Positions 2,317 through 36,180 of a DNA stretch of 64,000 bases are shown piece after piece. The notes beneath the pieces are model-generated. The model was not told the DNA's origin, did not search any database, and worked only from the letters and a program-made list of their open reading frames with translations. Made by a program: the position numbers and the translations under genes. The stretch comes from Trigonopsis variabilis (Eukaryota > Ascomycota > Trigonopsidomycetes > Trigonopsidales > Trigonopsidaceae), in NCBI GenBank assembly GCA_003707065.3, contig PPXM03000003.1, positions 1,054,001 to 1,118,000 on the forward strand. The letters are read 5' to 3'. Positions within the stretch are counted from its first letter, which is position 1. The number at the start of each line of letters is the position of its first letter.

Positions 2317-3190
2317 ATGAAAAGAATGGGCAACGGACCAGAGAGTGAAGCAAAAAAGATACGAGGGCAGGATATAGACTTCGAGGGAATGTTTGAAGGG
2401 TTCAAGCAGCAATTGGATACCTATCATACTGACCGAGAGTTCATCATCAAGGCTTCGCGAGATATCACTGCGGCCGCAAAGAAGATAATATTTGCTCTCC
2501 AGCGGTGAGAAGATAGACGATTCTGGTGCTGACTACAGGGTGAACGATTATGAACGACCATTACCGGCCAAGGTGAACAAAGACATTGAAGACAATGAAG
2601 CCAAGATCCGTGAGAAGCTGGACAGTGTGCGGCCTTATTTAGAAGGAAAAAACTTATGGAGGTTTGTTTATTTTTCCTATTGGCTCAGAAACTTAAATCT
2701 AGGTACAAAAAACAAATTACAGGAGGTCTGCAAGAATATGTAAGTGACGATGTGACCTGGATGATGAGCTAAGTGGAAGATTGAAGCATTATCATTTCGG
2801 AATTTTTTACAGAACAAAGAGTTGATCATTCTGGAACAAATCACAGCGATCATTGGTTACAGCGTCGCTGACTTGAATGACTATGTTTTGGGGATCATGG
2901 ACTGTACAGGAGAAATGATGCGATATGCAGTATCTCATCCATCTCAAGGCAACAACCAGATTGCGCCATTGACTTTTCAGATTTTGGTGTATATGCGTCT
3001 CATCAAACGAGGAGTGGATGATATTTCCACTGCAGGAGTTGGAGGTCTGATAAATAAAGAGTTTGAATTGAAACGACAAGCTTTGAATCAAAGTCTCGGA
3101 AAGGTTGAGAATGCCATTTATTCTGTCACTGTCAGAGGAAGTGAGAGGCCGGTTGGGTGGATACCTCAAGAACAAACTGCTAGGGAGTGA
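2317..3190 (+). CDS. Translin-associated factor X (TRAX) homologue
   Basis: TRAX pairs with translin in the C3PO endoribonuclease, which processes small RNAs and tRNA fragments. Exons 2317-2504, 2539-2661, 2703-2739 and 2813-3190 join into 241 residues. Family features are the helix with SRDIT followed by an IIFALQR-like segment (near residues 48-63), LQEY, LNDYVLGIMDCTGEMMR (the TRAX DxxLGxxDLTGELMR helix) and KVENAIYSVTVRGSE near the C-terminus. The acidic E/D positions in these helices are where the TRAX catalytic residues lie. The ATG at 2317 gives a normal N-terminus, and the length is slightly short for the family (about 240-300). Introns are 34, 41 and 73 bp; the second uses an unusual GTTTGT donor. 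No translin gene is in this window. The last about 12 codons after RGSERP are not conserved and could be affected by an unseen splice. Confidence 0.85.
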
Positions 3191-3488: not shown

Positions 3489-5003
3489 TCAACGACCTGT
3501 TAGCCGTTTCTCCAAAGGACGGGCGAGGATATGGCCAACAAAAGCAAAAGCAAAAGATAATTCAAAGCCGATATCGCCACCATCGGGTCCAACCATTTTA
3601 GCAATTGGACCGGTGAACCAGATCTGCCACATTCCAACCACAGCTCCAGCGACGCCGCAGGCAAAAGCAAAAATGGCGGCATAGCCTATAGGGTAAGCCA
3701 CCGAAGGCTTATCCCAGTCATGGACATTATAGGTGGATTGCTGGATCCTGCCCTTACGGAAGATCCAGTGCTCTGACAGAGCGATGGCCTGATAGATAGC
3801 TATCCAGTATCCAATGATATTCAAAAAGTCTTGGAGATATTCGGTGAAGGAGTAGTAAGCGGGGATCGCGACTCCAATGCTTACTCCGCTACCAATGATG
3901 ATCCAGACGGCTCTAGGAATGATTAAGAAGATAGGGTCAAAGGCTTGAGCTGACAGAGAGGCAGAATAGAAGGTGACAATAGTGTTAGCAATCAAGCCAA
4001 GAGCCAGGATGACAATGCAGAATTGACCAAAGCCATGGAGAGAGTCATGGACCATCAAAGCAAACAAAAGACCACCAAAAGAGTTTTGGGTATATTGCTG
4101 AGAATAATATGCTGAGTTCATGGCGCACATGCCCACAGCAACACCAATGATCTCGCCTAGAACCAGAGGGGCACCGACTCCAACAAAGACAGTAATGAAA
4201 ATCTTCCATGAAGGGGTTTTCGCGGGAAGGTAGACCGTATAATCAGACGAGAAAGCTGACCAGGTGGAGCTGAAACCATAGATGACTGCAGCAAAAGACA
4301 AGACCGACGCAGCTTCAACACTGCCTGATCCCATCGTGCCCACCGAAAAGGTGTGGCTTTTTGCCACACAGGCGATAATCACCATAAACATAGCCAACAC
4401 TGGCACCCAGGACCAGCGCTCGACGTGTAGAACGACGCGGTGGCCGAAAAAAGCAACGGCCATACTGACCAAGGAAACGATAAGGATGGCACCCCAGGGC
4501 GATAAGCCACCGTTATTCACAGTATGAAGCAATTGAGCAGCAGTAATGACATTGACTGCAGCAAATCCAAGCGCAGTCAAGACATTTAACAGCGAAAAGA
4601 TCTTGACCCCATGGACTCCACACCAATAACGGGAAAAAGCCATCTGCCGTAGCCCAAACTTGGGCCCAAAAATGGCAAAGTAGCCCACCGGAATAACACC
4701 AAGAATGTTAAACAATATAATCACGGCCACAGAATCCCAAAAGGCGAGCCCATACACTGTTGGAGCAAGAACACCAGTGGATACCGATGAGACAATAAAA
4801 TTGCTCGACGTCCATAACGTAAATAAATTCAACAAATTATCGGTTTGTTCATCTTCATAAACTCTTTCAACCCCACGGCTTTCTAATTGGGTCTTATCCG
4901 CAAAAGTTTGAAATTTCTCACGAAGCTGCCATCTTTTTTTGGAGTCCTCGGGATAAACCTTGATCGTAGGCCCATTAATATCGAGCTGCTTAAACATAGA
5001 CAT
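3489..5003 (-). CDS. NCS1 purine-cytosine permease (Fcy2/FcyB type)
   Basis: A single-exon gene of 504 residues, the usual size for fungal Fcy2-type transporters, which are proton symporters of cytosine, purines and related compounds at the plasma membrane. About twelve hydrophobic segments are visible. They start after a roughly 60-residue hydrophilic N-terminus with the family motif RGVERVYEDEQTDN just before the first membrane helix. The segment IPVGYFAIFGPKFGLRQM matches the conserved PxGPKxGLRQM signature region. The C-terminal tail is short and basic. Start codon is the ATG at 5003; a second in-frame ATG follows two codons later. It is the left-most member of a group with a C2H2 regulator, dipeptidase, SDR and GS-like ligase. 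A GATA-type motif lies about 260 bp upstream. Substrate cannot be fixed from sequence reading. Confidence 0.88.
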   Translation of the reverse strand: MSMFKQLDINGPTIKVYPEDSKKRWQLREKFQTFADKTQLESRGVERVYEDEQTDNLLNLFTLWTSSNFIVSSVSTGVLAPTVYGLAFWDSVAVIILFNILGVIPVGYFAIFGPKFGLRQMAFSRYWCGVHGVKIFSLLNVLTALGFAAVNVITAAQLLHTVNNGGLSPWGAILIVSLVSMAVAFFGHRVVLHVERWSWVPVLAMFMVIIACVAKSHTFSVGTMGSGSVEAASVLSFAAVIYGFSSTWSAFSSDYTVYLPAKTPSWKIFITVFVGVGAPLVLGEIIGVAVGMCAMNSAYYSQQYTQNSFGGLLFALMVHDSLHGFGQFCIVILALGLIANTIVTFYSASLSAQAFDPIFLIIPRAVWIIIGSGVSIGVAIPAYYSFTEYLQDFLNIIGYWIAIYQAIALSEHWIFRKGRIQQSTYNVHDWDKPSVAYPIGYAAIFAFACGVAGAVVGMWQIWFTGPIAKMVGPDGGDIGFELSFAFAFVGHILARPLEKRLTGR

Positions 5004-6423
5004 GGCGCCTGCCCTTTCTTATATTTTATATCGCCTGGAATGCGTTCTTTTCGGTCTTTAGGTGGTGACGAGTTGCGCAGTCGCAGTCACTTTGTCATTT
5101 TGGTCGTCCTAACTGAGAGGACAGAAAGGGCGCAGAGAACGGGTGACAAGAGCGCTACCAGACATGGAGATCTCATTGCAGGGATCCTAGACCATCAAGT
5201 AGCTCCAAAAGCTTAGGCTTGTATGAAGTTAAGGATCAATCTCTTCCATAAAATAGACTCTACTTATCTTACGACCTTTTTCCTCTAAGGTTCCTTGCCC
5301 GGATTTACTGGTCCGTAGCGCTATCATGAGCCACATCGCCCGGATAACGGCGGGCTGCTAACTATAGGCCCCAACCCTCCGATTCTAGTGTTACTCACCG
5401 GTCTCACGAGTGATGTCAACCGTCAATATTGAATGGGGGCCTTGCTAGTCTAGCAAACAAAGACAGTAGGTATATTGCATTGCCCTGTGTGTCTCTAAAT
5501 ATGGGAATGTACGCCCGCATTAAGTGTTTTGAAAGCGTATTTTCTCAGACTGGAAGCTCTATACACTCTATACAGAAAAGATCCAGGGCAACGGCACCGG
5601 TCTCTATCCGCTACACAGGATTCCGACATCGCCTACCGTCTAATCTTTTGTACAAGAGAGGATTAGATGTACTCGACACGTGGTTAATTACAAGTCTCAA
5701 TGCAGATTCTCTCAGCTGCAGCAGTGAGTTGAAACTGCTGATAAAGGGACGACTGAAGGTAGCAATAGTATCAGGAGCATTGTCGTAGTTATATCTTTCC
5801 GAGGCTAGGCGACGTTACAGATCCTATGTCAGATCCCCTATGTCATATTGATCTGTGAACTGACATCTTGTCTGAAGCCTTGACCCTCAAGGTAGTCAAT
5901 TCAGCCGTGTAATTTACAATGGCCCAAAAGAATAAACTGGTGACTCGTAATCAAGTGATAAATGTCGCCAAGACAAGACGGTCTGGTTCAGCAGAAATGC
6001 AAACAAGTATTTAACCCCAGCCACATTCCACATAGAATTCCAGCATTATAAGGACCCTTCTGTAGCTATAATCATAAAGCTCGATAGAATGGACCCTTCC
6101 AGGATAGTCTCAGATAATGACTCTACTATTCACCCTCTAGCACAGGCTTGACGTTACTTGCGCCGTACTTGGGGCGCAGTTAGGGTGATTTTGTCCTCAA
6201 GTCGAAAGAGACAGAAAATACCCTTACGAGAAAGAGGTCTTATGGAAGCACCTGTGGGAGGAAACAACTGTGCATCGACTGGTCAGACGATTACCGAGCG
6301 GATTTGCTCGGAACTGCAGGCCAATTGCATAGTTTCCATAGTATAACAAATGAGAACGATAGCGACTTGATCTCGCGAGTGCTCATCACTGAGAACGTTC
6401 ATAGCTGAGCGTGATCCCATCGA
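5004..6423. other. Intergenic 1.4 kb, permease promoter side
   Basis: Between the start of the permease (minus) and the 3' end of the C2H2 factor (minus). An open frame of 119 codons at 5429-5788 has no recognisable motif and no codon pattern like its neighbours. Nothing else was identified beyond the GATA-type motif at 5263-5270. Confidence 0.4.
5263..5270 (-). promoter_or_regulatory. GATA-type motif upstream of the permease
   Basis: CTTATCTT on the plus strand reads AAGATAAG towards the permease, matching the HGATAR consensus bound by AreA-type fungal GATA factors. It lies about 260 bp upstream of the start codon. Short motifs occur by chance; weight comes from the double sites upstream of two neighbouring genes. 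Confidence 0.35.
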
Positions 6424-8298
6424 CTATTCGGGCCAGTGAGCTAAAAGGCAACGACAGAGTCCCCAACATCCTCTCTGCTGGAGCAGACCTCTTTTTATCA
6501 ATTCCATTATCCCTTGGGCGGAATTATTCTCGTCGAATTCAATACTATTTTGCACCAAGAGCTCTCGTAAGTACTCTTTTGACCTGATGCAGACAAGAGT
6601 GCGAGAGTGGTCCATGGTCACAGCATAACAGTAAACGACAATCAGTATATAAAGAAGAGACAACTTTTCTGCAGGGCCTCTGAGATTTTGCGAAGGTTTC
6701 ACATGCGCGTGAATAACCCAAGATATGGTAGACGTGAGAGGACTTAGCTGGAACGGTTCAAGATGAGTCTTATCTTCGACATTGCCCACTTCTCCAGCCC
6801 TATTTAGGGTGAGCGATATACTTGATCTAATGTCAATTGGGCCACTGCTTCCTACCGCAACTAGATGTCGAATATGAGGGTCACTGACAGTATGGACCCG
6901 AACAACGGCCAAATGCCATAGAGACCAAGACAGATAATGTTTTGAATCAGTATATCTCGAGCAATTCCCAGCTGACTCAATATGACAAGCTAGATTTTCT
7001 AGCATCTGGCTAATCTCCTTACAGCGGTGTTTAATATCAACCTTAATCAGAGGAAATGCTTTATAGAGATTCAGAATCATTTCATGACAAGCGCAGACTG
7101 CAATTAAACACGTAAAAGGCTCTATTTCAGCAGAAGAACTCTTATTATCGAAATATGTGTGCACATTTTCACATTGAATCAAGTCATCCACACACAGACG
7201 GCCTTCAGCCCACGATGAGGTTGAACAAGGTAAGGGAGTCGTTATCTCGGCAATAGACAGCCACGGAGATGAGTAGTTGAATAGACTTGCTAGAATTCCA
7301 ATCACATACAGCGCCCACAAGACTCTTTTCTTGGTCTCCAGTTGAACTAATTCATGGTTGCTGGCTTCCCGTAGAGCTGAACGAGTCACCTGAATGCTTA
7401 TCCAGCCGTGGCTCCTCATGATGGCAGTTAGACATGGAAAATAAGGGTACAGTCGCTGGAGTATGTCTTTATCATTTATGAGCAGTCCTGTGAAAGAATA
7501 AATTGCCAATGCCTGAATTGTCCACAGTAGATCAAGGCGATTTGAATCAGCTTGGAGGTATAATTGTAAGATACTAAATCCAGAATGCCAAAATTCCTTT
7601 CCCATTGAAATATCCTTCTCATCTCCAGCATAAAAGCAGCCCGCTGAAGCGATCGCCCGAACTAAAGATGCGGGAGCCGTTTTTGGATCAAATGACTTAC
7701 GATGGATTAGTGGAAGAATTGCATCAAAAGAATAAAAGAATTCTTCAATAAAATGATCAAAAAATTCAGGAGGGAAGAAAGGGCGAACGGTAAAGTAGTG
7801 GTGAAGACGTGGATCGTATTGCCGAGGTAAATCCACAGTTTCAAAGGGCGGCAAGATAACTTCGCCACAGAAGTTTGTCTTTTCATTTCTATCAGACGGT
7901 AAGCTCTGAAATGGAGCTAAAGCGGGGATAATTTGTGATTGCGGTAGATCATTGATAGCCTCAGTCAAGTGGAGTGCCATCAAAATATTAGATGGGCGAT
8001 TGCATGGATATAATTTAGATCCGACATCAAAACCTCGTGCCATGGATATTCCATTCTGGTGAGAAGATGAACGTGAACTCCCCTTGGAGCGGTGCGTACG
8101 AACATTCTCTTGATGAAAACGGCGATTATGTCGGGTCAAATGGTCCGAGCGAGTAAAAGATCGCTTACAAATATCACACGAAAGAAGAATTTGCGTGTTC
8201 TGATGAGAACGTTGGTGTCTCTTCAGATTCTCATGGCGAGTGAATTGTTTCCCGCAAGTTGAACAGCTGTGGATAACGCGGCGAGCTGAGTCGTTCAT
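6424..8298 (-). CDS. C2H2 zinc-finger transcription factor with fungal MHR domain
   Basis: A single-exon gene of 624 residues. Two classical C2H2 fingers start at residue 11: C-x2-C with HENLKRHQRSH, then CDICKRSFTRSDHLTRHNRRFH. A basic/serine-rich linker follows, then a long region typical of the fungal-specific transcription factor (middle homology) domain, with FFDHFIEEFFYSFDAILPLIH and a helix-rich C-terminal half. Proteins with this layout bind DNA through the finger pair and often control catabolic genes beside them. Start is the ATG at 8298, only about 10 residues before the first finger cysteine. It sits between the permease and the dipeptidase in the same orientation, which suggests a pathway-specific regulator (inference). 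A tandem GATA motif lies about 40 bp upstream of the start. Confidence 0.85.
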   Translation of the reverse strand: MNDSARRVIHSCSTCGKQFTRHENLKRHQRSHQNTQILLSCDICKRSFTRSDHLTRHNRRFHQENVRTHRSKGSSRSSSHQNGISMARGFDVGSKLYPCNRPSNILMALHLTEAINDLPQSQIIPALAPFQSLPSDRNEKTNFCGEVILPPFETVDLPRQYDPRLHHYFTVRPFFPPEFFDHFIEEFFYSFDAILPLIHRKSFDPKTAPASLVRAIASAGCFYAGDEKDISMGKEFWHSGFSILQLYLQADSNRLDLLWTIQALAIYSFTGLLINDKDILQRLYPYFPCLTAIMRSHGWISIQVTRSALREASNHELVQLETKKRVLWALYVIGILASLFNYSSPWLSIAEITTPLPCSTSSWAEGRLCVDDLIQCENVHTYFDNKSSSAEIEPFTCLIAVCACHEMILNLYKAFPLIKVDIKHRCKEISQMLENLACHIESAGNCSRYTDSKHYLSWSLWHLAVVRVHTVSDPHIRHLVAVGSSGPIDIRSSISLTLNRAGEVGNVEDKTHLEPFQLSPLTSTISWVIHAHVKPSQNLRGPAEKLSLLYILIVVYCYAVTMDHSRTLVCIRSKEYLRELLVQNSIEFDENNSAQGIMELIKRGLLQQRGCWGLCRCLLAHWPE

Positions 8299-8954
8299 CT
8301 TATACTGCTCATTGAATCACCCGAAGTTCCCTCTATCTTATCTCATCAGCAAGGGTGATAACTCGAATGTGGATATCCCTGTAGAGATCAACTTCTCATT
8401 GATCCCCGTCGGGTCGTGCCTATGTTACCCGTAACGTCTCTCCATCTAGCAAGGACTGGCTTGGTTGATAGAATCACACGATGTCTATTCAATTCTTTCT
8501 GTACGAGTCTTGAACTTATTGTAGTTTCTCTCTTGTTGATTTTACTGAGTAATCATCTGGCTGGCGTATATAGTTTTACTATTCGAAGGTCGCTTTTTAC
8601 CAAGAGGCCGCCCAAATTACGACGTAGGATCCATTGTTTTCGAGTTCTGTCTCAGAAACTTTTGATTATCCAACCTAAAAGTTTAGTGTGTCGGAAAATC
8701 ATAAATGATAACACATGACAGGGACATGGGGCTTCTGCTCATAGCATCGAGACAGTCTCTCTCAAAATTTGGGTAATCGAAGGGAAGGATATGCGGATAT
8801 GACTCGCATATCCTCTATATTCAAGTTTACGACGCTACATCTGTAGATGGATCTTTTGCTGGTTGGTGGTATACATAATAATTCTCACAAAGGTTTCCTG
8901 TCTTGTTGTAGTGACTGCTTCAAATTGAGAGTCACTCTTGGGATACAGCAGTGA
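8299..8954. other. Intergenic region between dipeptidase 3' end and C2H2 factor promoter
   Basis: 656 bp. It holds the C2H2 factor promoter with the tandem GATA motif at 8334-8343. A 100-codon open frame at 8416-8718 has no recognisable domain. Nothing else is seen. Confidence 0.4.
8334..8343 (-). promoter_or_regulatory. Tandem GATA motif upstream of the C2H2 factor
   Basis: TATCTTATCT on the plus strand reads AGATAAGATA towards the gene: two overlapping GATA cores, 36-45 bp before the start codon. The same GATAAGATA arrangement occurs upstream of the dipeptidase. Confidence 0.45.
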
Positions 8955-10187
8955 TTACTTTTCCGATTTCTGTCCCATGCTCTTTTTCAAGGCATCGGAA
9001 GAACCAGGATATAATTCGGGCATTTTTTCAGTTCCTTCGAACCAGATGTTCCAATTGCGGCCTGGCCAATTGCTCTCAACGGGGAGAGAGTCTGGCAGAG
9101 CTTGAATCCCTTTAGCTACTTCTTCGACTTGTTTCCAAGCCCGTAGGAGGTTTCCGCCCATAAGGCATAGAATCTGTTCATCGGTGGCGTCACTTTGCGC
9201 CATGACAGCCTTGATAAGGTCGGGATACTTAGAAACGTCTTCGATGCCCACTGGCCCATGAGGAGTGCCATCAAAATCTCCACCAATACCGACATGGTCC
9301 CAACCAGCTACCTTAGCGACATGAAGTATATGTGCAACTGCATCATCTAGGTTGGCGCTTTCAGGATCAGCAGACCTGGAAATGAATCTTGGAACAAAGG
9401 TGACATGGACAACCCCACCATTCTCCTTGAGACGCAATAAGACGTCATCAGGAACATTTCGCAGATGTTTGGTAACGCTGTAAGCCGAAGAATGTGAAAA
9501 GATAACCGGTGCTTTAGTATGATCGAGGATCTGCCGCATGGTGTCGTGAGAAACATGAGAAAGATCCAACATCATGCCAAGACGGTTATATTCTTTCACT
9601 GCTTCCACTCCATACTCCGACAGTCCTTTGTCTGGCAAGCCCATGGCCACAGAAGAAGCAGCCGTAGCAAAAGGATTATCACAATTATGCGTGACTGTGA
9701 TATATCTGACTCCAAGATCATAAAACTGGCGAATACAGGCAATGGAAGAATCAACCTGGTGCAGTCCCTCAGCGCCAAACATGCTTGCTAGCTTTCCCTT
9801 CTTCCAAGCTTCCCGCGCCTGGTCCGAGGTATAACAGATTTCAAAAGTATCCGGGTAGGCTCTCAACATCCTTTGGCACACATCAATTTGCTCCAAGCTG
9901 TCTCGTACAGCCGTGTTTGGGCGATTAAAATCTTGGTAGTCTGCGTCGGGAAACTTGCATTCAATGAAGACTGACCAAAACTGCATTCCAACTCGCCCTT
10001 TTCGCAGTCGAGGAATATCAGTATGATTGGTGGTCCCTGTCTCTAAGTTGAACTTTTCGTCATGGTAAAATTCATTGTGAAGCTGCGATCGGAGCAGGTA
10101 AGGGATGTCATTGTGAGTATCAATGATAGGTCCCAGTTTGCAGAGTCGATCAAACCTCTCGTCAATACTATTATCTTGGACAGTCAT
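8955..10187 (-). CDS. Membrane-dipeptidase family (peptidase M19) zinc hydrolase
   Basis: A single-exon gene of 410 residues, the normal size. M19 enzymes are binuclear zinc TIM-barrel peptidases that cleave dipeptides and some N-acyl or D-amino-acid bonds. Visible signature: the HxD metal pair in IIDTHNDIPYLL (H25, D27), a bridging glutamate in MFGAEGLHQV, histidines in MLDLSHVSHDTM, IFSHSSAYSVTKH, and GIGGDFDG for substrate and metal binding. No signal peptide or GPI-type tail is visible, so it is probably cytosolic, unlike mammalian renal dipeptidase. Start is the ATG at 10187. It lies in line with the C2H2 factor and near the SDR and GS-like ligase; together these suggest cleavage of a glutamyl conjugate or dipeptide-like intermediate (inference). 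Confidence 0.9.
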   Translation of the reverse strand: MTVQDNSIDERFDRLCKLGPIIDTHNDIPYLLRSQLHNEFYHDEKFNLETGTTNHTDIPRLRKGRVGMQFWSVFIECKFPDADYQDFNRPNTAVRDSLEQIDVCQRMLRAYPDTFEICYTSDQAREAWKKGKLASMFGAEGLHQVDSSIACIRQFYDLGVRYITVTHNCDNPFATAASSVAMGLPDKGLSEYGVEAVKEYNRLGMMLDLSHVSHDTMRQILDHTKAPVIFSHSSAYSVTKHLRNVPDDVLLRLKENGGVVHVTFVPRFISRSADPESANLDDAVAHILHVAKVAGWDHVGIGGDFDGTPHGPVGIEDVSKYPDLIKAVMAQSDATDEQILCLMGGNLLRAWKQVEEVAKGIQALPDSLPVESNWPGRNWNIWFEGTEKMPELYPGSSDALKKSMGQKSEK

Positions 10188-10687
10188 TGAGGCTTTGTAT
10201 CTAAGGATTCCCCCTCATTCTTATATAGTAGCTCAACGGTTGCTTCGATAAGATAAATGAAGCTTACCTAAGATCCCAACCGCATGGAATACGGCCCTGG
10301 TTGCTCGGCTAAGTCGTCAGTCCATTGGTGGGCATTCCCAGTAGAACCAGCCGTTACAGTTGAGTACAATTCTTGTCACGTAATGATAGGGGAAAGCCTA
10401 TCATTATTGGGTGCAGCGGGATGTTTTAGTGTAAGACCGCATTGCCATTTTTCAGAACACCAATTGAGTCTTGGAAGCAAATTAGCTAGATCTAGAAGGA
10501 GTGAATGACCATGTATGGACTCGATAGTGTTGTTCCTAGATATTTTCAGCCAGTGCCAAATTGAGGAACGTGCCTCCATTTGTGGTTAAATTTGTAGTTA
10601 AAGAATCTATCTTGTGTACTCTAGTATTTAGGCGATAATAAGATCTTACGTAGTAATCAAGGCCTTCGAAGTAGTATTACTTATTGC
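10188..10687. other. Intergenic region, dipeptidase promoter
   Basis: 500 bp between the dipeptidase start and the SDR 3' end. It holds the tandem GATA motif at 10247-10256. No gene is seen. Confidence 0.4.
10247..10256 (+). promoter_or_regulatory. Tandem GATA motif upstream of the dipeptidase
   Basis: GATAAGATAA lies 60-69 bp upstream of the dipeptidase start. GATA factors can act in either orientation. The double core is the same as upstream of the C2H2 regulator gene. Confidence 0.45.
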
Positions 10688-11645
10688 TTATTTTCCAAAC
10701 GCAATATTCTCAGGGCCAGGAGCGGCAGGACCTTCAGCAGTGACATATGCTCTCGATAAGCCACCGTCAACGGTGAACTCGGTACCAATGACATAAGAAG
10801 ATTCATCTGAGGCCAAGAAGACGACAGCCTTTGCTTGTTCGATGGCCTCACCGAATCGACCAGTAGGAAGGTGGACCGTTCTTCTAAACCGCTTATGTTC
10901 ATCTGTTCCAAGGAAATCTTGCAACAATGGGGTGTTGAGAGGCCCAGGACATAAAGAGTTGAATCTAATGCCGTCTTTAGCGTGGAGGATAGCCAACTCT
11001 CTAGTCATGGTCAAAACAGCGCCTTTAGAAGCGGTATAGGCAACTTGCGGAGTAGCTGAACCGACAAGAGCAACCATCGAAGCGGTGTTTATGATTGAGC
11101 AATTGGTCTTCTTGTGTTCGAGAATACTCTTGACGGCGTATTTACAACCCCAGAAGACACCCTTGACATTGATGGCCATGGTCAAATCATAGACGCTCTC
11201 AGGAGTGTTAAGTAGGTTGTCATCTTGAGGATGCATGATTCCAGCGTTATTGAACATAACGTCAACTCCGCCCCATTTGTCGGCAGCAGCTACTAGAGCT
11301 TCAACCTGTTGTTCTTTGGTAACATCGGTAACTTTACCAATGACTTCGACGCCGGGAATAGCATGTTCTTTCACTATGGCAAGAGCCTTCTCAAGAGCAG
11401 CCTCATTCACATCGGCCATCACAACATTGGCACCTTCAATCACGAATTGAATTGAAGTTTCAAGACCAATTCCACTACAGGTTAGCCTTGGATTCAATTG
11501 ATTCGTTATCTACTGATAACTTGTCGCGCTATCTGTCTTCATCTCTCCCCGTCGAGTCGTATCAGGTCAGAGAGAGTCAAACCGATCTATTTACTTACCC
11601 TCCAGCACCAGTAATAATAGCATTCTTTCCTTGAAGACGGGGCAT
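10688..11645 (-). CDS. Classical short-chain dehydrogenase/reductase (SDR)
   Basis: Two exons, 11599-11645 and 10688-11474, split by a 124-bp intron, give 277 residues. Joining the exons restores the cofactor motif TGAGGGIG (residues 12-19), which the intron interrupts. Further classical SDR features are NNAG (about 91-94), the catalytic serine in NTAS (about 148) and YTASK (Y162, K166). The acidic residue in VVMADVN after the second strand favours NAD over NADP. The C-terminus VIGTEFTVDGGLSRAY is typical of bacterial-like 3-oxoacyl or alcohol dehydrogenases. The gene is divergent from the GS-like ligase, with 385 bp between starts, so the two may be co-regulated. The substrate is unknown; a role in oxidising a glutamylated alcohol or amine intermediate is inference. 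Confidence 0.9.
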
Positions 11646-12030
11646 TTTTATAGACACTTTATAAGTTTGCCTGGGGTAGACTGTTTTTATAAACTGTCGG
11701 AGGTAGATGTCCGAAGGTTTTGGAGGGACAAAGGTTTATGGAGCGACTGACCGAAACCAACGGTCAGCGACTCGCGATCAGTAGCCAAAAAAAGGGCAAA
11801 CCCAATCAGACTTCGAGTGACAGCTACATAGACTCAAGCATCTCTCCCACTAATAGCCAAGTCACTTGCAATTTTTAAAATTGGGTGTAGAATACGCGAG
11901 AAAGATCAACTTTTAATAGCGAGCTCTCAAACAAGCTCTGGGAAATAACTGTCCCGTATGTGTATATCGTATCACGGATGGCGGGTGGTCTCTTTATCGG
12001 GAAAGGCATCAGCAGAGTTGTTCCGACCTA
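11646..12030. promoter_or_regulatory. Divergent promoter between SDR and GS-like ligase
   Basis: 385 bp. A TATA-like TTTATAAG lies about 10-20 bp from the SDR start, and a second TTTATAAA lies slightly further upstream. The region holds the perfect inverted repeat at 11747-11767, described separately. Confidence 0.45.
11747..11767. promoter_or_regulatory. Inverted repeat CTGACCG-N7-CGGTCAG
   Basis: Two perfect 7-bp arms flank a 7-nt spacer, about 100 bp upstream of the SDR and 265 bp upstream of the GS-like gene. The CCG/CGG halves resemble sites of dimeric fungal regulators (for example Zn2Cys6 proteins). The binding protein is unknown. Confidence 0.4.
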
Positions 12031-13544
12031 ATGGAGTTCAGCAAAGAATATATTCTGGCAGTGGTGGATCAATCAGTAGGTGTGAAGCTTGCTGGTGTCG
12101 ATGCAGATGGTATTTTGAGAGGAAAGATGATTTCTGTCAAGAAATTCAGATCCGTTGTCGAAGGTGGTTTTGGATTTTGCAGGTTGGACTTGACTTGCGA
12201 TCAATTGATCTAATTTCAGTGTCCTTTTCGGATGGGATATGCATGATAAAAGCTACGAGCCCGAACTAGAGATTTCCAACAAAGACAATGGGTATCGAGA
12301 TCTGCTGGCCGTGATTGACTTATCGTCATACCGAACAATCCCTTGGGAAAACAATACTCCATTTTTCTTGGTGCGACTCCAGAATTGACGTGTTACTGAC
12401 TGGTAGGTTTATTTTCATGATCCTGCTACTGGGCAGCCTGTGGCGCCATGTCCGAGATCTTTGCTCAAAGGAATCACTGACAAGCTCGATCACTTAGGAT
12501 ATACGTCCACTGCAGGGCTGGAGTACGAGTTTTATACTTACAAAGAAACTCCTGGATCTCTTGCTGAGAAAAAAGGTCATGATCTGACTCCTTTGACTCC
12601 CGGGTATTTTGGTTACTCAGTGACCCGTCCAGCCCTCAACAAGGATTTCTACTATGATATCTGGAACACGTGCAATAATTTCGATGTTGAAATAGAAGGT
12701 TTTCATACCGAGACCGGTCCTGGTGTCTACGAGGCTGCCTTGGCTTACGGACCAGCCACCAAAATGGCTGACAAGGCTTCTTTATTTAAATTGACTGCCC
12801 GAGCAATAGGCCATAAATATGGAATTGTACCTTGTTTCATGGCTAAGCCTCATAATAACCTGCCAGGTAATTCTGGTCATATCCATGGTATGTGCCGGAT
12901 CGATATCGAGCTAACTTTCTTTAGTTTCTTTACTCCATAAGGACGGAACAAATGCTTTAGCTAGAGATGTCAAAGATGTGGACTCTGCTTGGCCTGATAT
13001 TGCCTATCTGTCTGACACAGGTCGCCATTTCCTTGCCGGAGTTCTTGCTGGACTGGCAGATATTATGCCTTTGTTGGCACCAAATATCAATTCCTATAAA
13101 CGCTTAGTGGAGAACTTTTGGGCTCCCGTCACCATTTCCTGGGGTCTTGAGCATCGAATTGCCTCGATCCGACTCATCGCTCCTCCCCATTGTCCTGCTA
13201 AGGCTACCCGCTTAGAGATTCGCACACCTGGAGCTGATGTACATTCTCATTATGCAATGTCTGCTATCTTTGCTTTGGGTCTATATGGAATGGAGAAGAA
13301 ATTGCCTCTAACGTTGCCTCCTATGGCTCAAGCAGTCTCGGACGGTGATGCAGATAAATTTGAACGTCTACCAAAATCTTTACGCGCTGCTACCGAACGC
13401 TTTATGGCTCCAGATAGCCTTGCCCGAGTCGTACTCGGTGATGCATTTGTGGAGCATTATGGCGGTACTCGGTTAGCCGAGTGCGCACTTTTCGAAAACG
13501 CTGTGACTGACTGGGAAGTGACTCGGTATATGGAAATCATTTAG
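12031..13544 (+). CDS. Glutamine-synthetase-like ligase (FluG C-terminal / gamma-glutamyl ligase type)
   Basis: Four exons, 12031-12182, 12220-12370, 12407-12887 and 12925-13544, give 467 residues; introns are 36-37 bp. Joining them restores a continuous GS fold: a beta-grasp N-terminus ending in PWENNTPFF, the metal-binding pair in GLEYEFY (about 138), TETGPGVYEAAL (about 203), GNSGHIHVSL (about 254-263, the conserved histidine) and KATRLEIRTPGADVHSHYA (about 353). The sequence is of the prokaryotic GSI/GlnA-like class that includes FluG C-terminal domains and gamma-glutamyl-polyamine or gamma-glutamyl-anilide ligases, not the eukaryotic GSII nitrogen-assimilation enzyme. No amidohydrolase domain is fused. 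Donors GTTGGA and GTGCGA are unusual but both restored frames are conserved. It probably ligates glutamate to an amine (family knowledge plus inference). Confidence 0.85.
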
Positions 13545-13716: not shown

Positions 13717-14782
13717 ATGAAACTCAAAGGACAGCTGAGACGTCCTGATAGTTTGCGAGGTAAGCATAGCCTGAGATAGGTTTGACCTTAACGTGAAAGA
13801 TGTCGCATTCTCTTTGTCCATGCTCCGTCAGGAAGGTTTGGTGCGTTGGAGTCCAGAAGGAGTCCAGTTAGGAGTGGTACTGGATGCAAATCTAGCTCAA
13901 ACTTGGGGGTAAGCAATCGTATTAACATGCTCTAATACAAGATATATGAAGAGTTCATATCTGTTCATCAACTATTCGTGCCAAAGCGCAGCAGATGATA
14001 TAATTACGATGGAGCTGAACATGGGTCAGCTGAATCGGGCCCTGCGCTCTTGTCTATTAGCGGCGTTCGAGTCAGGATCATATGCCATTGAAAATAGCAC
14101 AGCGGACATGCTAATGTCGCAGACGATTGTTATGGTACGGTTGGTAAAGCGGCAAGGGATTCCCTATCTGCAATTGAGTGTGAATGGAGGATTAAGTCAC
14201 GGAGCGCTGACTAGTATTACTCAACAATTGCCTGTCCATATTGTCCAGCCAGATTCGGCCAATCATTTACAGGAACCGGAATATCCATCTCCCCAAGTTG
14301 CCATTAGTGTACCTGGGACAGGGCGAGGTAGACTATTTGGTACGAATCAGATGCTTATGGGTCCAAAAACAGGGACAAATACACAAAAATTTCAGCACTT
14401 GTTAAGAATTTCAGACCGGCTAAAGCAATTGTCTCCAAGGTTGATTGTATCGGCTAATAACGAAGGAAAATTGATTCTCGAGGTGGAAGAACAAGTCTAC
14501 AGGATATGCAACGAATGGGTTGGCCTGTACAATCCGAAATTACAACATACAGATGATCTTGACACTAGCGAGAGAGAGACTACTATGTATACCACTGTGA
14601 TTGATTCCAAAGATTGGCAGTCAATGCTGAAAGCGATAGGAACGGTCTTATCAAGTCATCCGAATGCAGCTGGCGTTGCTTGTCTCAACGCAAACAGAGT
14701 CATGGTGGTCTATTTCTATTTAAATGCAATCAATGATGTCGACAGAGGTGTTATCACCTTCTACCATCCCAGTCTGGAGTAA
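13717..14782 (+). CDS. hus1: Hus1, 9-1-1 checkpoint clamp subunit
   Basis: Exons 13717-13759, 13800-13908 and about 13942-14782 give about 330 residues. Hus1 forms the PCNA-like Rad9-Rad1-Hus1 ring loaded at DNA damage sites in the nucleus. The short MKLKGQLRRP N-terminus is followed by a PCNA-like strand pattern. The family segment is PYLQLSVNGG, then THxIPV-like QQLPVHIVQP, then a late strand LIVSANNEGKLILEVE, and it ends ITFYHPSLE, as in Hus1 C-termini (YFIPALS). Intron 1 is 40 bp and ends in AAAG. For intron 2 two acceptors keep frame (after 13941 or 13953), changing four residues. The 3' end faces the small membrane-protein gene on the minus strand. Confidence 0.75.
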
Positions 14783-33139: not shown

Positions 33140-34141
33140 CTAGGATTTATATCCAGTGGCTTTGATGATTGATTCGATCGTGTCTTCGATCGAGGTCTCA
33201 AGGTCAGTGTACTTGATTCCAAGTTCCCTAACTGCTTTTGAGCCATCGCCAGTAAACAGTACCTCCTCGGGAGCGATGGTAGCGATTTTGCGTCCGGGAT
33301 AGAGATCGTGGAAAGCCTTCTTTAGACTCTCGGGCTCAAAGTTCGATGCAGCCAACAGATAACGCTCGTCCGTCTTTGCACCCAAAGCTGCCACATGAGC
33401 TCTAGCAACATCTCGAACATCGACCCATAATAAACGCTGAGTTCCAGGGAATGCGGGGTCAGCGGTGTAGATTTGCCAAAGGAGCTTGTTAGACGTATTC
33501 AAGTGATCCAATGACACCGGCCCAAGAATAGGGCCTAGAACTAACGTCGGGTTAATGACGGAAAGTCTCCATGATGGTTGATGTTTCTTGTATGTATCCC
33601 AAGCAGCTTTTTCCGCCAATGTCTTGGATAAGCAGTAAGCCAAAAGAGCACTGTCACCGACCTGCTCCTTGGTGAGGGGATCCCAATCTTTCTCGGTGAA
33701 CACCGTTCCTTTGGGAGCTGGCTTATCAAACGTTCCAATGGCCGCAAAGGACGACGTGACCACGACATGTTTTAGACTTTTCGAGATGGCCGGATCCACG
33801 GCAGCTTCCAAAAAATTGGACGTCCCCTCGACAGCTGGACGGTAAAGATCAGCCTCAAAGTCGGTGACGTCGTATCGGAAAGGACTGGCTGTATGAAGGA
33901 TGTGATCAAACTCATACTTGGATAATACCGTCTTCACCGCATCTCGATCCGCAATATCTTCCAATTGTTCGATTATCAACTGTCCTGGCTTGGCCTGGGA
34001 AAAGACTTTGAAGTGATCTGCCGTCTTCTCAGGATGGCGCACCGTAGCCACGACATTGTATCCATGATCAAGCAGATCTTGGATCACATGCATAGCAATA
34101 AAACCGTTTCCGCCACTAACTAAGACTCGTTCTCCAGACAT
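33140..34141 (-). CDS. Gre2-like NADPH-dependent aldehyde/ketone reductase, copy A
   Basis: A single-exon gene of 333 residues of the extended SDR (dihydroflavonol-4-reductase-like) family, which includes yeast Gre2 methylglyoxal/isovaleraldehyde reductase. Features: GGNGFIAMHVIQDLL cofactor motif, VVATVRHPEK with an arginine that favours NADP, HTASPF, VVTSSFAAI (catalytic Ser), and AYCLSKTLAE (catalytic YxxxK). It is about 75-80% identical to copy B, 1 kb away in the same orientation, by eye. A stretch of 73 bp (33791-33863) is identical to copy B while flanking sequence differs. Upstream it carries several TCGGA elements shared with copy B. Confidence 0.9.
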   Translation of the reverse strand: MSGERVLVSGGNGFIAMHVIQDLLDHGYNVVATVRHPEKTADHFKVFSQAKPGQLIIEQLEDIADRDAVKTVLSKYEFDHILHTASPFRYDVTDFEADLYRPAVEGTSNFLEAAVDPAISKSLKHVVVTSSFAAIGTFDKPAPKGTVFTEKDWDPLTKEQVGDSALLAYCLSKTLAEKAAWDTYKKHQPSWRLSVINPTLVLGPILGPVSLDHLNTSNKLLWQIYTADPAFPGTQRLLWVDVRDVARAHVAALGAKTDERYLLAASNFEPESLKKAFHDLYPGRKIATIAPEEVLFTGDGSKAVRELGIKYTDLETSIEDTIESIIKATGYKS

Positions 34142-35169: not shown

Positions 35170-36180
35170 CTAGGAATTATATCCAGTGGCTTTGACAATT
35201 GATTCGATCGTGTCCTTGATCGAGGTCTCAAGGTCAATGTACTTGATTCCAAGTTCTCTAGCAGCTTTTGAGCCATCGGCAGTAAATACAGTCTCATCGG
35301 GCGGGAAGGTCGCTATTTTGCGTCCTGGGTAGAGATGGTCGAAGATCTTCTGTGCGCGCTCAGGAGAAAAAATTGAAGCTGCCACCAGATAGCGCTCGTT
35401 TGTCTTTGCATTCAATGCTGCGACGTGAGCCCTAGCAATGTCTCGAACATCAACCGCAATATAATTGTGGGTCCCGTCGAAGGTAGAGTCGGCTGTATAG
35501 ATCTGCCAAACGGCCTCGTTGGACAAATTCAAGTGATCCAACGAAACAGGGCCGAGAATCGGACCTATTACATAGGCAGGGTTGATGAAGGATATTCCCC
35601 AAGACGGTTTATGCTTATTGTACGTATCCCAAGCGGCTCTTTCCGCCATTGTCTTTGATAGAAGGTAAGCCAGCACACCGCTATTCCCGACTTCTTCTTT
35701 GGTTAAAGGATTCCAGTCTTTCTCGGTAAAGACGGTCCCTTTGGGAACCGCCTTATGGAAGGTCCCAATGGCTGCAAAAGATGAGGTAACAACCACATGC
35801 TTGATCGTGTTTGACATACTCGGATCCACGGCAGCTTCCAAAAAATTGGACGTCCCCTCGACAGCTGGACGGTAAAGATCAGCCTCAAAGTCGTCGACGG
35901 TGAACGTCAAAGGACTGGCGGTGTGAATGATGTAGTCGAACGCATACTTGGATAGCACCGCCCTTACCTGATCCCGGTCCGTAATATCTTTCAATTGCTC
36001 GATTATCAACTGTCCTGGCTTGGCCTTGGAAAAGACCTTGAAATTATCTGCCTTTTTTTCTGGATTGCGCACCGTAGCCACGACATTGTATCCGTGATCA
36101 AGCAGATCTTGGATCACATGCATAGCAATAAAACCATTTCCACCACTAATTAAGACTCGCTCTCCAGACATCTGTTTCAA
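35170..36180 (-). CDS. Gre2-like NADPH-dependent aldehyde/ketone reductase, copy B
   Basis: A single-exon gene of 336 residues. It has the same motifs as copy A: GGNGFIAMHVIQDLL, VRNPEK, HTASPL, VVTSSFAAI and AYLLSKTMAE. Differences cluster in the substrate-side regions (SPERAQKIFDHLYPG versus SLKKAFHDLYPG; INPAYVIGPILGP versus INPTLVLGPILGP), so substrate ranges may differ. The ATG used gives MSGERVLISGG; an upstream in-frame ATG (36180) adds MKQ. The 73-bp tract 35821-35893 is identical to copy A. A product of recent tandem duplication. Confidence 0.9.
   Translation of the reverse strand: MKQMSGERVLISGGNGFIAMHVIQDLLDHGYNVVATVRNPEKKADNFKVFSKAKPGQLIIEQLKDITDRDQVRAVLSKYAFDYIIHTASPLTFTVDDFEADLYRPAVEGTSNFLEAAVDPSMSNTIKHVVVTSSFAAIGTFHKAVPKGTVFTEKDWNPLTKEEVGNSGVLAYLLSKTMAERAAWDTYNKHKPSWGISFINPAYVIGPILGPVSLDHLNLSNEAVWQIYTADSTFDGTHNYIAVDVRDIARAHVAALNAKTNERYLVAASIFSPERAQKIFDHLYPGRKIATFPPDETVFTADGSKAARELGIKYIDLETSIKDTIESIVKATGYNS

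Follow-up and report, generated by a model that had tools for sequence, protein, structure and literature searches.

A glutamine synthetase-like ligase paired with an SDR in Trigonopsis variabilis: a possible fungal form of a bacterial gamma-glutamylation route

Within the 64,000 nucleotides of Trigonopsis variabilis DNA analysed here (the window), five genes lie between a Translin-family (TRAX-like) gene and Hus1, and they raise the question of whether all five form one nitrogen-compound catabolic cluster, as a preliminary description proposed, or whether a smaller unit among them carries the function. Pfam confirms the families that had been assigned to all five genes across this range, as well as the two bounding genes, through a Translin-family exon and Hus1 (Table 1). 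In protein comparisons, the genome matches ascomycete yeasts best.

Table 1. Genes, exons and flanks of the locus, with positions in the window
Feature	Position	Strand	Details
Translin-family (TRAX-like) exon, flank	2822..3187	+	Pfam E 3.1e-16
NCS1-family permease	3489..5003	-	504 aa; Pfam Transp_cyt_pur E 4e-44
C2H2 + Fungal_trans transcription factor	6424..8298	-	624 aa; Pfam zf-C2H2 (two stretches) + Fungal_trans, E 8.8e-10 and 1.5e-10
M19 membrane-dipeptidase family enzyme	8955..10187	-	410 aa; Pfam Peptidase_M19 E 2.4e-108
SDR exon 2	10688..11474	-	Spliced model; Pfam adh_short_C2, SDR E 1.8e-55
SDR exon 1	11599..11645	-	Start codon and beginning of glycine-rich cofactor motif; GT..AG intron restores TGAGGGIG
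SDR/GS-like intergenic region	11646..12030	.	385 bp, divergent genes; gene models
GS-like ligase exon 1	12031..12182	+	Spliced model
GS-like ligase exon 2	12220..12370	+	Spliced model
GS-like ligase exon 3	12407..12887	+	Metal ligands E140, E142, E203, E210, H259; spliced model, Pfam Gln-synt_C
GS-like ligase exon 4	12925..13544	+	R321, W327 (flap position), R339, R344, E359, R361; spliced model, Pfam Gln-synt_C
Hus1, flank	13946..14779	+	Pfam E 3.4e-35

The splice sites of the SDR gene and of the glutamine synthetase (GS)-like gene were inferred from the sequence, and yield a two-exon SDR of 277 amino acids and a four-exon ligase of 467 amino acids with introns of 36–37 bases. Gln-synt_C is matched in two exon ORFs of the latter (Pfam E 1.3e-25 and 1.2e-41), and the spliced protein can be aligned end to end with 15 relatives of 458–503 amino acids.

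The ligase and the divergent SDR appear to form a linked pair that other fungi keep together. The best 120 homologues of each protein, taken from a search that accepted only proteins of 0.55–1.75 times the query length, were compared by eye in lists in which names were clipped and many rows were nameless, and linkage was read from matching longest contigs and locus tags rather than from gene maps. By these signs, GS and SDR are linked in 10 of the 11 species named in both lists, ranging from yeasts to moulds. The longest contig is of equal size in the GS and SDR rows of nine species (Nadsonia, Tortispora, Sarocladium, Pleurostoma, Trichoderma asperellum, Hirsutella minnesotensis, Madurella, Bombardia and Echria), two of which, Hirsutella (HIM_10053/10052) and Madurella (02705/02706), have consecutive tags as well. 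In Trichoderma cf. simile the two tags follow one another (009359/009360), and Yarrowia lipolytica, the eleventh shared species, is uninformative. The preliminary description had made its proposal depend on adjacency being conserved in relatives, and for GS and SDR the signs indicate that it is.

According to a residue map, the ligase keeps the metal, glutamate and ATP residues given for exons 3 and 4 in Table 1, apart from the flap position. There, the ammonia-flap glutamate E327 is replaced by W327, a position at which the bacterial rows have W or F and PuuA has Y; Y179 is replaced by F169, and the stretch around D50 aligns poorly. A six-frame search of the genome with Gln-synt_C returned the window gene and one weaker place on contig C12 (48.7 bits). 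Scored apart rather than spliced, the exon ORFs reached 53.3 and 105.3 bits against the NCBIfam GlnA equivalog, for which the cut-off is 429.15. The second-best solved relative of the ligase is 5dm3, which we take to be Chromohalobacter Csal_0679.

Among the best 80 of 592 bacterial matches, the nearest relatives of the fungal GS are of Bacteroidota type (40–46% identity), whereas identity to the GS of the actinobacterial clusters is just 32–35%. A tree was calculated with 29 hand-picked loci of these 80, omitting a long-branched Bradyrhizobium row (L067) and rows L106, L107, L113, L114 and L115, which duplicate included loci. The fungal GS clade (support 100/100) lies inside a 33-row clade (100/100) together with the Bacteroidota-type GS, and the fungal ligase does not fall, among these loci, in the separate clade of the actinobacterial cluster GS. 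When the GSI-type paralogues of three actinobacterial genomes were compared, with GlnII-type matches left out, the cluster GS was the top scorer with the fungal GS (217–231 bits versus at most 135).

The window SDR is, by best matches and tree placement, a predicted orthologue of the SDR of glnA4-like actinobacterial loci. Seven actinobacterial genomes were searched with the fungal SDR, and in all seven its best match was the SDR adjoining the GS-like gene (148–250 bits), with no other SDR above 125 bits. Conversely, the cluster SDR of Streptomyces populi found the window SDR as its best match in the Trigonopsis genome (217.7 bits; next 112.8), and a tree joins the fungal SDRs and those of the clusters in a single clade (support 98/97). 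These comparisons used actinobacterial loci with the same gene order as the S. coelicolor cluster, rather than the sequence of S. coelicolor itself.

Partner genes were counted within 7 kb of the GS-like gene, on either strand, at the best 80 of 592 bacterial matches, a sample picked by likeness to the fungal proteins. Among these, the 25 actinobacterial loci have an aldehyde dehydrogenase (ALDH) at 23, an SDR at 22, a C26 hydrolase at 21 (5 on the GS strand) and an amino-acid permease at 12; the 50 Bacteroidota-type loci have an iron alcohol dehydrogenase at 29, an ALDH at 26, and a C26 hydrolase and an amino-acid permease at 24 each. By these counts, where partners exist, an alcohol dehydrogenase ranks among the most frequent in both groups. 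Since the fungal GS resembles the Bacteroidota-type GS more closely, and the partner there is the iron enzyme, ligase and SDR need not share one donor, and any transfer of the GlnA4 substrate to the fungal ligase is indirect. Of the 50 Bacteroidota-type loci, 19 show no searched partner family, the three best-scoring ones (L060, L011 and L012) among them; counting just the 36 loci that have a full 7 kb to either side, 14 show none. This group of ligases may therefore have other jobs, which counts against the gamma-glutamylation reading of the pair given below.

The M19 enzyme is matched once in the genome (six-frame search). It belongs to the renal-dipeptidase family by a whole-domain match (positions 7–319 of the 319 in the Pfam profile) and by motifs, kept in the alignment to renal dipeptidase 1itq, that we take to be the metal site; GliJ (5lwz) is also among its best solved relatives. 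NCS1 matched five genes in the six-frame search, and the window member gave no BLAST match at 1e-5 to any of the other four, each represented by its longest ORF, and no match at 0.001 to solved structures. GATAAG occurs once upstream of each of the NCS1, regulator and M19 genes; between the SDR and GS genes there is no GATAAG and one GATAA site. As GATAAG has a frequency of 0.66 per kb over the whole window, we make no claim of nitrogen regulation.

A single co-regulated catabolic cluster of all five genes, with import by NCS1, a C2H2/Fungal_trans switch, conversion by ligase and SDR and release by M19, seems unlikely. Such a cluster would agree with the contiguity of five metabolic or regulatory genes between the Translin-family gene and Hus1, with the uniqueness of the M19 match, and with a genome that has no clear C26 hydrolase, a gap that M19 could fill. 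However, relatives of the window M19 and NCS1 occur at 0 of the 80 bacterial GS loci (best 80 of 592), and no linkage of M19 to GS or SDR was seen in the few comparable named fungi of the best-120 lists. The longest contigs of M19 and GS/SDR rows differ in Diaporthe amygdali, Clonostachys rhizophaga and a Coccidioides cluster, a weak indication as rows may mix assemblies, and many yeasts of the M19 list (such as Pichia, Debaryomyces and S. pombe) are not among the best 120 GS matches, which is no proof of absence. No 8-mer is common to at least three of the four promoters, compared with a mean of 1.2 when stretches of matching length were drawn 1000 times at random from the remaining window, coding regions among them; the NCS1 gene stands 1.4 kb away from the regulator gene. 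The bacterial loci, the linkage signs and the promoters thus speak against the five-gene unit of the preliminary description, and NCS1, the regulator and M19 may be bystanders near the pair.

We lean slightly towards reading the GS-like/SDR pair as a functional core, the fungal counterpart of the route by which bacteria gamma-glutamylate amino alcohols, with ethanolamine as the likeliest substrate. Judging from its relatives and residues, the ligase would use ATP to join ethanolamine to the gamma-carboxyl of glutamate, giving gamma-glutamylethanolamide, and the SDR would convert the alcohol to the aldehyde. An aldehyde dehydrogenase encoded elsewhere in the genome would then produce gamma-glutamylglycine, from which a hydrolase might, with less assurance, release glutamate and glycine; because the genome has no clear PuuD-type C26 hydrolase, the M19 dipeptidase or a gamma-glutamyl transpeptidase is the candidate for this step. 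NCS1 could act as importer and the C2H2/Fungal_trans protein could control the pathway, although neither role has support. The glutamylate-then-oxidise scheme of the preliminary description is strengthened by the ascomycete linkage signs and by the SDR orthology, and the bacterial parallels point to an amino alcohol instead of the nucleobase derivative that it also considered.

Several observations count against this reading. The five genes include no aldehyde dehydrogenase, the closest ones in the genome being about 40% identical and on other contigs, and no C26 hydrolase, of which the genome has a single partial match elsewhere (30.8 bits); besides C26, a formylglutamate amidohydrolase type would qualify as the gamma-glutamylglycine hydrolase of a GlnA4-type pathway. 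In the tree with 29 bacterial loci, the ligase lies outside the clade of the actinobacterial cluster GS. The genome also encodes three copper amine oxidases, another possible route for amine use, and their presence led us to reject the idea that it needs the GS-SDR route for want of such enzymes.

It is doubtful, though a serious alternative, that the pair handles a hydroxylated amine other than ethanolamine, such as alaninol, isopropanolamine or serinol. The grouping of the fungal GS with Bacteroidota-type ligases, not with the actinobacterial cluster GS, would suit another substrate, as would the isopropylamine route of Pseudomonas, in which a gamma-glutamylated amino alcohol is an intermediate. 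Ethanolamine, however, is an abundant natural amino alcohol. Moreover, the tested ligase of the same gene order, S. coelicolor GlnA4, made gamma-glutamylethanolamide in vitro, its mutant did not grow on ethanolamine, and a figure legend reports it as ethanolamine-specific (PMC6529630, in excerpts). A mainly regulatory or developmental role like that of FluG or FlrA, with the SDR an incidental neighbour, is very unlikely. Disruption of FlrA, a GS-only protein as is the window ligase, harms the quality of spores, their tolerance of stress and the infection of hosts in Beauveria bassiana (PMC9426541, in excerpts; likened by description), but the window ligase keeps its catalytic residues, its gene shows SDR linkage signs in 10 of 11 species, and the SDR appears orthologous to that of the bacterial loci.

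Ethanolamine forms the head group of a major membrane lipid, phosphatidylethanolamine, and serves microbes as a nitrogen source; an unrecognised version of the bacterial pathway for its use may exist in fungi. Among the open-licence PMC papers retrieved, no title or abstract opening describes a fungal gamma-glutamylethanolamide route or GS-SDR pair, which is no proof of absence. If the pair is the fungal form of this route, a family that bears the name 'glutamine synthetase' in many ascomycetes gains a function open to testing, and a metabolic reading may be due for some GS-only proteins that have been treated as regulators of development. We regard as improbable the wider proposition that ascomycetes, yeasts and moulds alike, gained a gamma-glutamylation pathway for ethanolamine from bacteria before the two diverged and kept it as the GS-SDR pair, M19 having been recruited here as terminal hydrolase and NCS1 as importer.

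In bacteria, a gamma-glutamylation route for ethanolamine has already been described (PMC6529630 and PMC10132767, both in excerpts). As in the S. coelicolor glnA4 cluster (SCO1610-SCO1615), the window has a GS-like gamma-glutamyl ligase beside an orthologous SDR, with metal, glutamate and ATP residues kept and an aromatic residue in place of the ammonia-flap glutamate. Compared by description, the gene families and order of that cluster match Streptomyces locus L065, which has a GntR-family regulator on the opposite strand, the GS-like gene, an ALDH, the SDR and a DUF2510 protein; in the excerpts of PMC6529630, the dehydrogenase and hydrolase steps of the Streptomyces pathway are predictions themselves. 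Unlike in the glnA4 cluster as given there, neither an ALDH nor a C26 hydrolase is adjacent in the fungus, the regulator is from another family, and an NCS1 protein replaces the ethanolamine/amino-acid permease; the low GS identity noted above is a further difference from glnA4-type loci. Bacteroidota-type loci (for example L014, L016 and L023) combine the GS-like gene with C26 and ALDH, frequently with an amino-acid permease as well, and have the iron alcohol dehydrogenase instead of an SDR. By annotation, the E. coli Puu putrescine pathway follows the same logic, with a GS-like ligase, an aldehyde dehydrogenase and a gamma-glutamyl hydrolase, but the oxidase PuuB takes the place of an alcohol dehydrogenase, and PuuA is 28% identical to the fungal GS. 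The label 'FluG-like' holds for the GSI-type catalytic domain, which the window ligase has in common with FluG and FlrA, and fails for the rest, since A. nidulans FluG has an amidohydrolase fused to GS (PMC9426541, in excerpts) and the window protein is a GS domain only. Compared by description, the ethanolamine gamma-glutamylase operon of Phaeobacter and Chromohalobacter has a TRAP transporter, an RpiR regulator, an aldehyde dehydrogenase and a hydrolase of its own, and resembles the fungal locus in uniting the ligase with a gamma-glutamylethanolamide dehydrogenase (PMC10132767, in excerpts).

Pfam matches confirmed the identity of all five genes of the preliminary description, which lie on contig C3 of an 11.35-Mb genome of 15 contigs. 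On the plus strand the order is a Translin-family gene, NCS1 permease (-), C2H2/Fungal_trans regulator (-), M19 dipeptidase (-), SDR (-), GS-like ligase (+) and Hus1 (+). The SDR and the GS-like ligase, the two intron-bearing genes, were both spliced into models and share a divergent intergenic region of 385 bp; the putative introns of the GS-like gene, at 36-37 bases, are very short. Among the matches listed, the best named ones come from ascomycete yeasts: the ligase matches Nadsonia, Trichomonascus and Tortispora, and the SDR matches Tortispora and Yarrowia, followed by moulds and Blastobotrys. Elsewhere in the window, two adjacent same-strand extended-SDR (Epimerase-family) genes have very similar Pfam matches.

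Positions of features in the window and on contigs of the genome (G000)
Feature	Sequence	Position	Strand
GS-like intron	window	12183-12219	
GS-like intron	window	12371-12406	
GS-like intron	window	12888-12924	
Extended SDR	window	33143-34141	-
Extended SDR	window	35173-36180	-
Copper amine oxidase	C1	871301-872542	
Copper amine oxidase	C7	174846-176054	
Copper amine oxidase	C5	554310-555506	
Classical SDR copy	C14	128965-129720	
Classical SDR copy	C4	137014-137769	
Classical SDR copy	C2	2906-3667	
Fourth similar SDR copy	C2	8887-9642	

Linkage in fungi was read from the longest contigs and locus tags attached to the homologue lists, compared by eye. The GS and SDR lists (best 120 each) have eleven named species in common, and in nine of them the longest contig given for the two proteins is identical in size to the base. 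Hirsutella minnesotensis and Madurella fahalii combine an identical contig with consecutive tags, and the tags are also consecutive in Trichoderma cf. simile. These signs point to GS-SDR linkage in Saccharomycotina as well as Pezizomycotina; they suggest direct neighbours only in the three species with consecutive tags, and less surely in Tortispora (tags 101386/101384). Yarrowia lipolytica is uninformative, its clusters mixing several strains. Applied to the M19 list, this approach covered two shared species plus a Coccidioides cluster and gave no sign of linkage to GS or SDR. A promoter comparison among the genes was negative. It is position alone that argues for NCS1, regulator and M19 as members of a unit. 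The permease differs from the genome's four other NCS1 genes and presumably resembles Fcy-type purine-cytosine permeases, so that it could simply be the usual nucleobase permease of this yeast. The earlier interpretation is partly right: a two-gene GS-SDR core stands, but the five-gene catabolic cluster is unproven.

Prokaryotic genomes scanned with the fungal GS alignment yielded at least 592 relatives, and the analysis used the best 80. Bacteroidota account for most of the nearest 50 (40-46% identity to fungal GS), and the actinobacterial relatives among the 80 reach 32-35%. At these best 80 of at least 592 loci, tblastn of the window proteins found the SDR beside actinobacterial GS, and M19 and NCS1 relatives at none. 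Partner genes were counted within 7 kb on either strand at 25 actinobacterial, 50 Bacteroidota-type and five other loci; the counts are lower bounds, because the full 7 kb on both sides was present in only 14 of the 25 and 36 of the 50. The actinobacterial loci hold ALDH (23), SDR (22), C26 hydrolase (21, five on the GS strand) and amino-acid permease (12); the Bacteroidota-type loci hold iron alcohol dehydrogenase (29), ALDH (26), C26 hydrolase (24) and amino-acid permease (24). SDR, ALDH and C26 hydrolase each occur in one of the other five, and two have nothing. The dehydrogenase type splits by lineage, with SDR in 0/50 Bacteroidota-type and the iron enzyme in 0/25 actinobacterial loci.

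Where partners exist, alcohol oxidation following ligation is the common theme. Four Bacteroidota-type loci (L014, L016, L023, L054) carry GS-like, iron alcohol dehydrogenase, C26 hydrolase and ALDH genes, with an amino-acid permease in L014 and L023; their pathway logic is the same, the iron enzyme replacing SDR. Counting against an amino-alcohol pathway, none of the searched partner families was found in 19 of the 50 Bacteroidota-type loci (14 of the 36 complete loci), among them the best-scoring L060, L011 and L012, and the GS subgroup of L011 and L060 may have another role. These two partner-free Mucilaginibacter loci hold the closest bacterial GS relatives among the best 80 of at least 592; in L011, GS is followed by a protein that has no Pfam match and by a HAD hydrolase; 15 of the 50 loci have a member of the first of these families and 14 a member of the second.

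SDRs form a large family, and proximity alone could therefore mislead. In all seven actinobacterial genomes searched, the fungal SDR matched the one at the GS locus best (148-250 bits); the next-best in any of them scored at most 125 bits, with 5 to 91 SDR matches per genome. In the reverse search, with the Streptomyces populi cluster SDR against this genome, the window SDR scored 217.7 bits and the runner-up 112.8. A tree was built from 35 SDRs: 13 fungal, 7 from the clusters, 9 next-best actinobacterial and 6 others of this genome. In it the fungal SDRs and those of the clusters group together as a single clade (support 98/97). The tree includes three very similar classical SDR copies, and the match to the S. 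populi protein gave a fourth; with two of the four less than 10 kb from a contig end, they are possibly a recently expanded subtelomeric family.

The residue map shows that the fungal ligase keeps the metal, glutamate and ATP residues. Flap position E327 is W327 (W or F in bacterial rows) and Y179 is F169, while the D50 position falls within a poorly aligned stretch. Sections of PMC6529630 interpret changes at these positions in GlnA4 and PauA7 as ammonium-site loss. In the GS tree (55 rows, including 29 of the 80 bacterial loci), the fungal clade (100/100) is nested in a clade of 33 rows (100/100) that it shares with Bacteroidota-type ligases, with no clear branching order inside; cluster GS from actinobacteria groups apart, with PuuA and the remaining GSI paralogues of actinobacteria at a greater distance. 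The fungal ligase is therefore a relative, not a member, of the actinobacterial cluster clade. An ancient transfer, possibly from bacteria, would fit this tree, but the sampled relatives were picked by fungal similarity.

By analogy with bacteria, the ligase would couple glutamate to ethanolamine or a different amino alcohol, and the SDR would oxidise the conjugate. The ALDH step would fall to an enzyme encoded elsewhere in the genome, which has six candidates (39-42% identity). For the last step, the genome search found no clear C26 hydrolase; candidates would be the cluster M19 enzyme or three gamma-glutamyl transpeptidase loci (an additional, weak match contains stops). Enzymes of this M19 type act on ordinary dipeptides, so that a gamma-glutamyl bond would be an unusual target. 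Three copper amine oxidases may offer an alternative route for amine use.

Among the open-licence papers searched, we found no published description of the fungal GS-SDR pair. This core probably represents, in conserved fungal form, some of the steps of a known bacterial pathway. The actinobacterial locus L065 and its kin were equated with the S. coelicolor glnA4 cluster by gene families and order, not by S. coelicolor sequence. According to sections of PMC6529630, GlnA4 forms gamma-glutamylethanolamide in vitro and growth on ethanolamine requires it, the SDR (SCO1611), ALDH (SCO1612) and hydrolase (SCO1615) steps being predictions. PMC10132767 describes a Phaeobacter operon whose enzymes have the same roles and which responds to phosphatidylethanolamine; it also cites related genes of Chromohalobacter and Agrobacterium as demonstrated.
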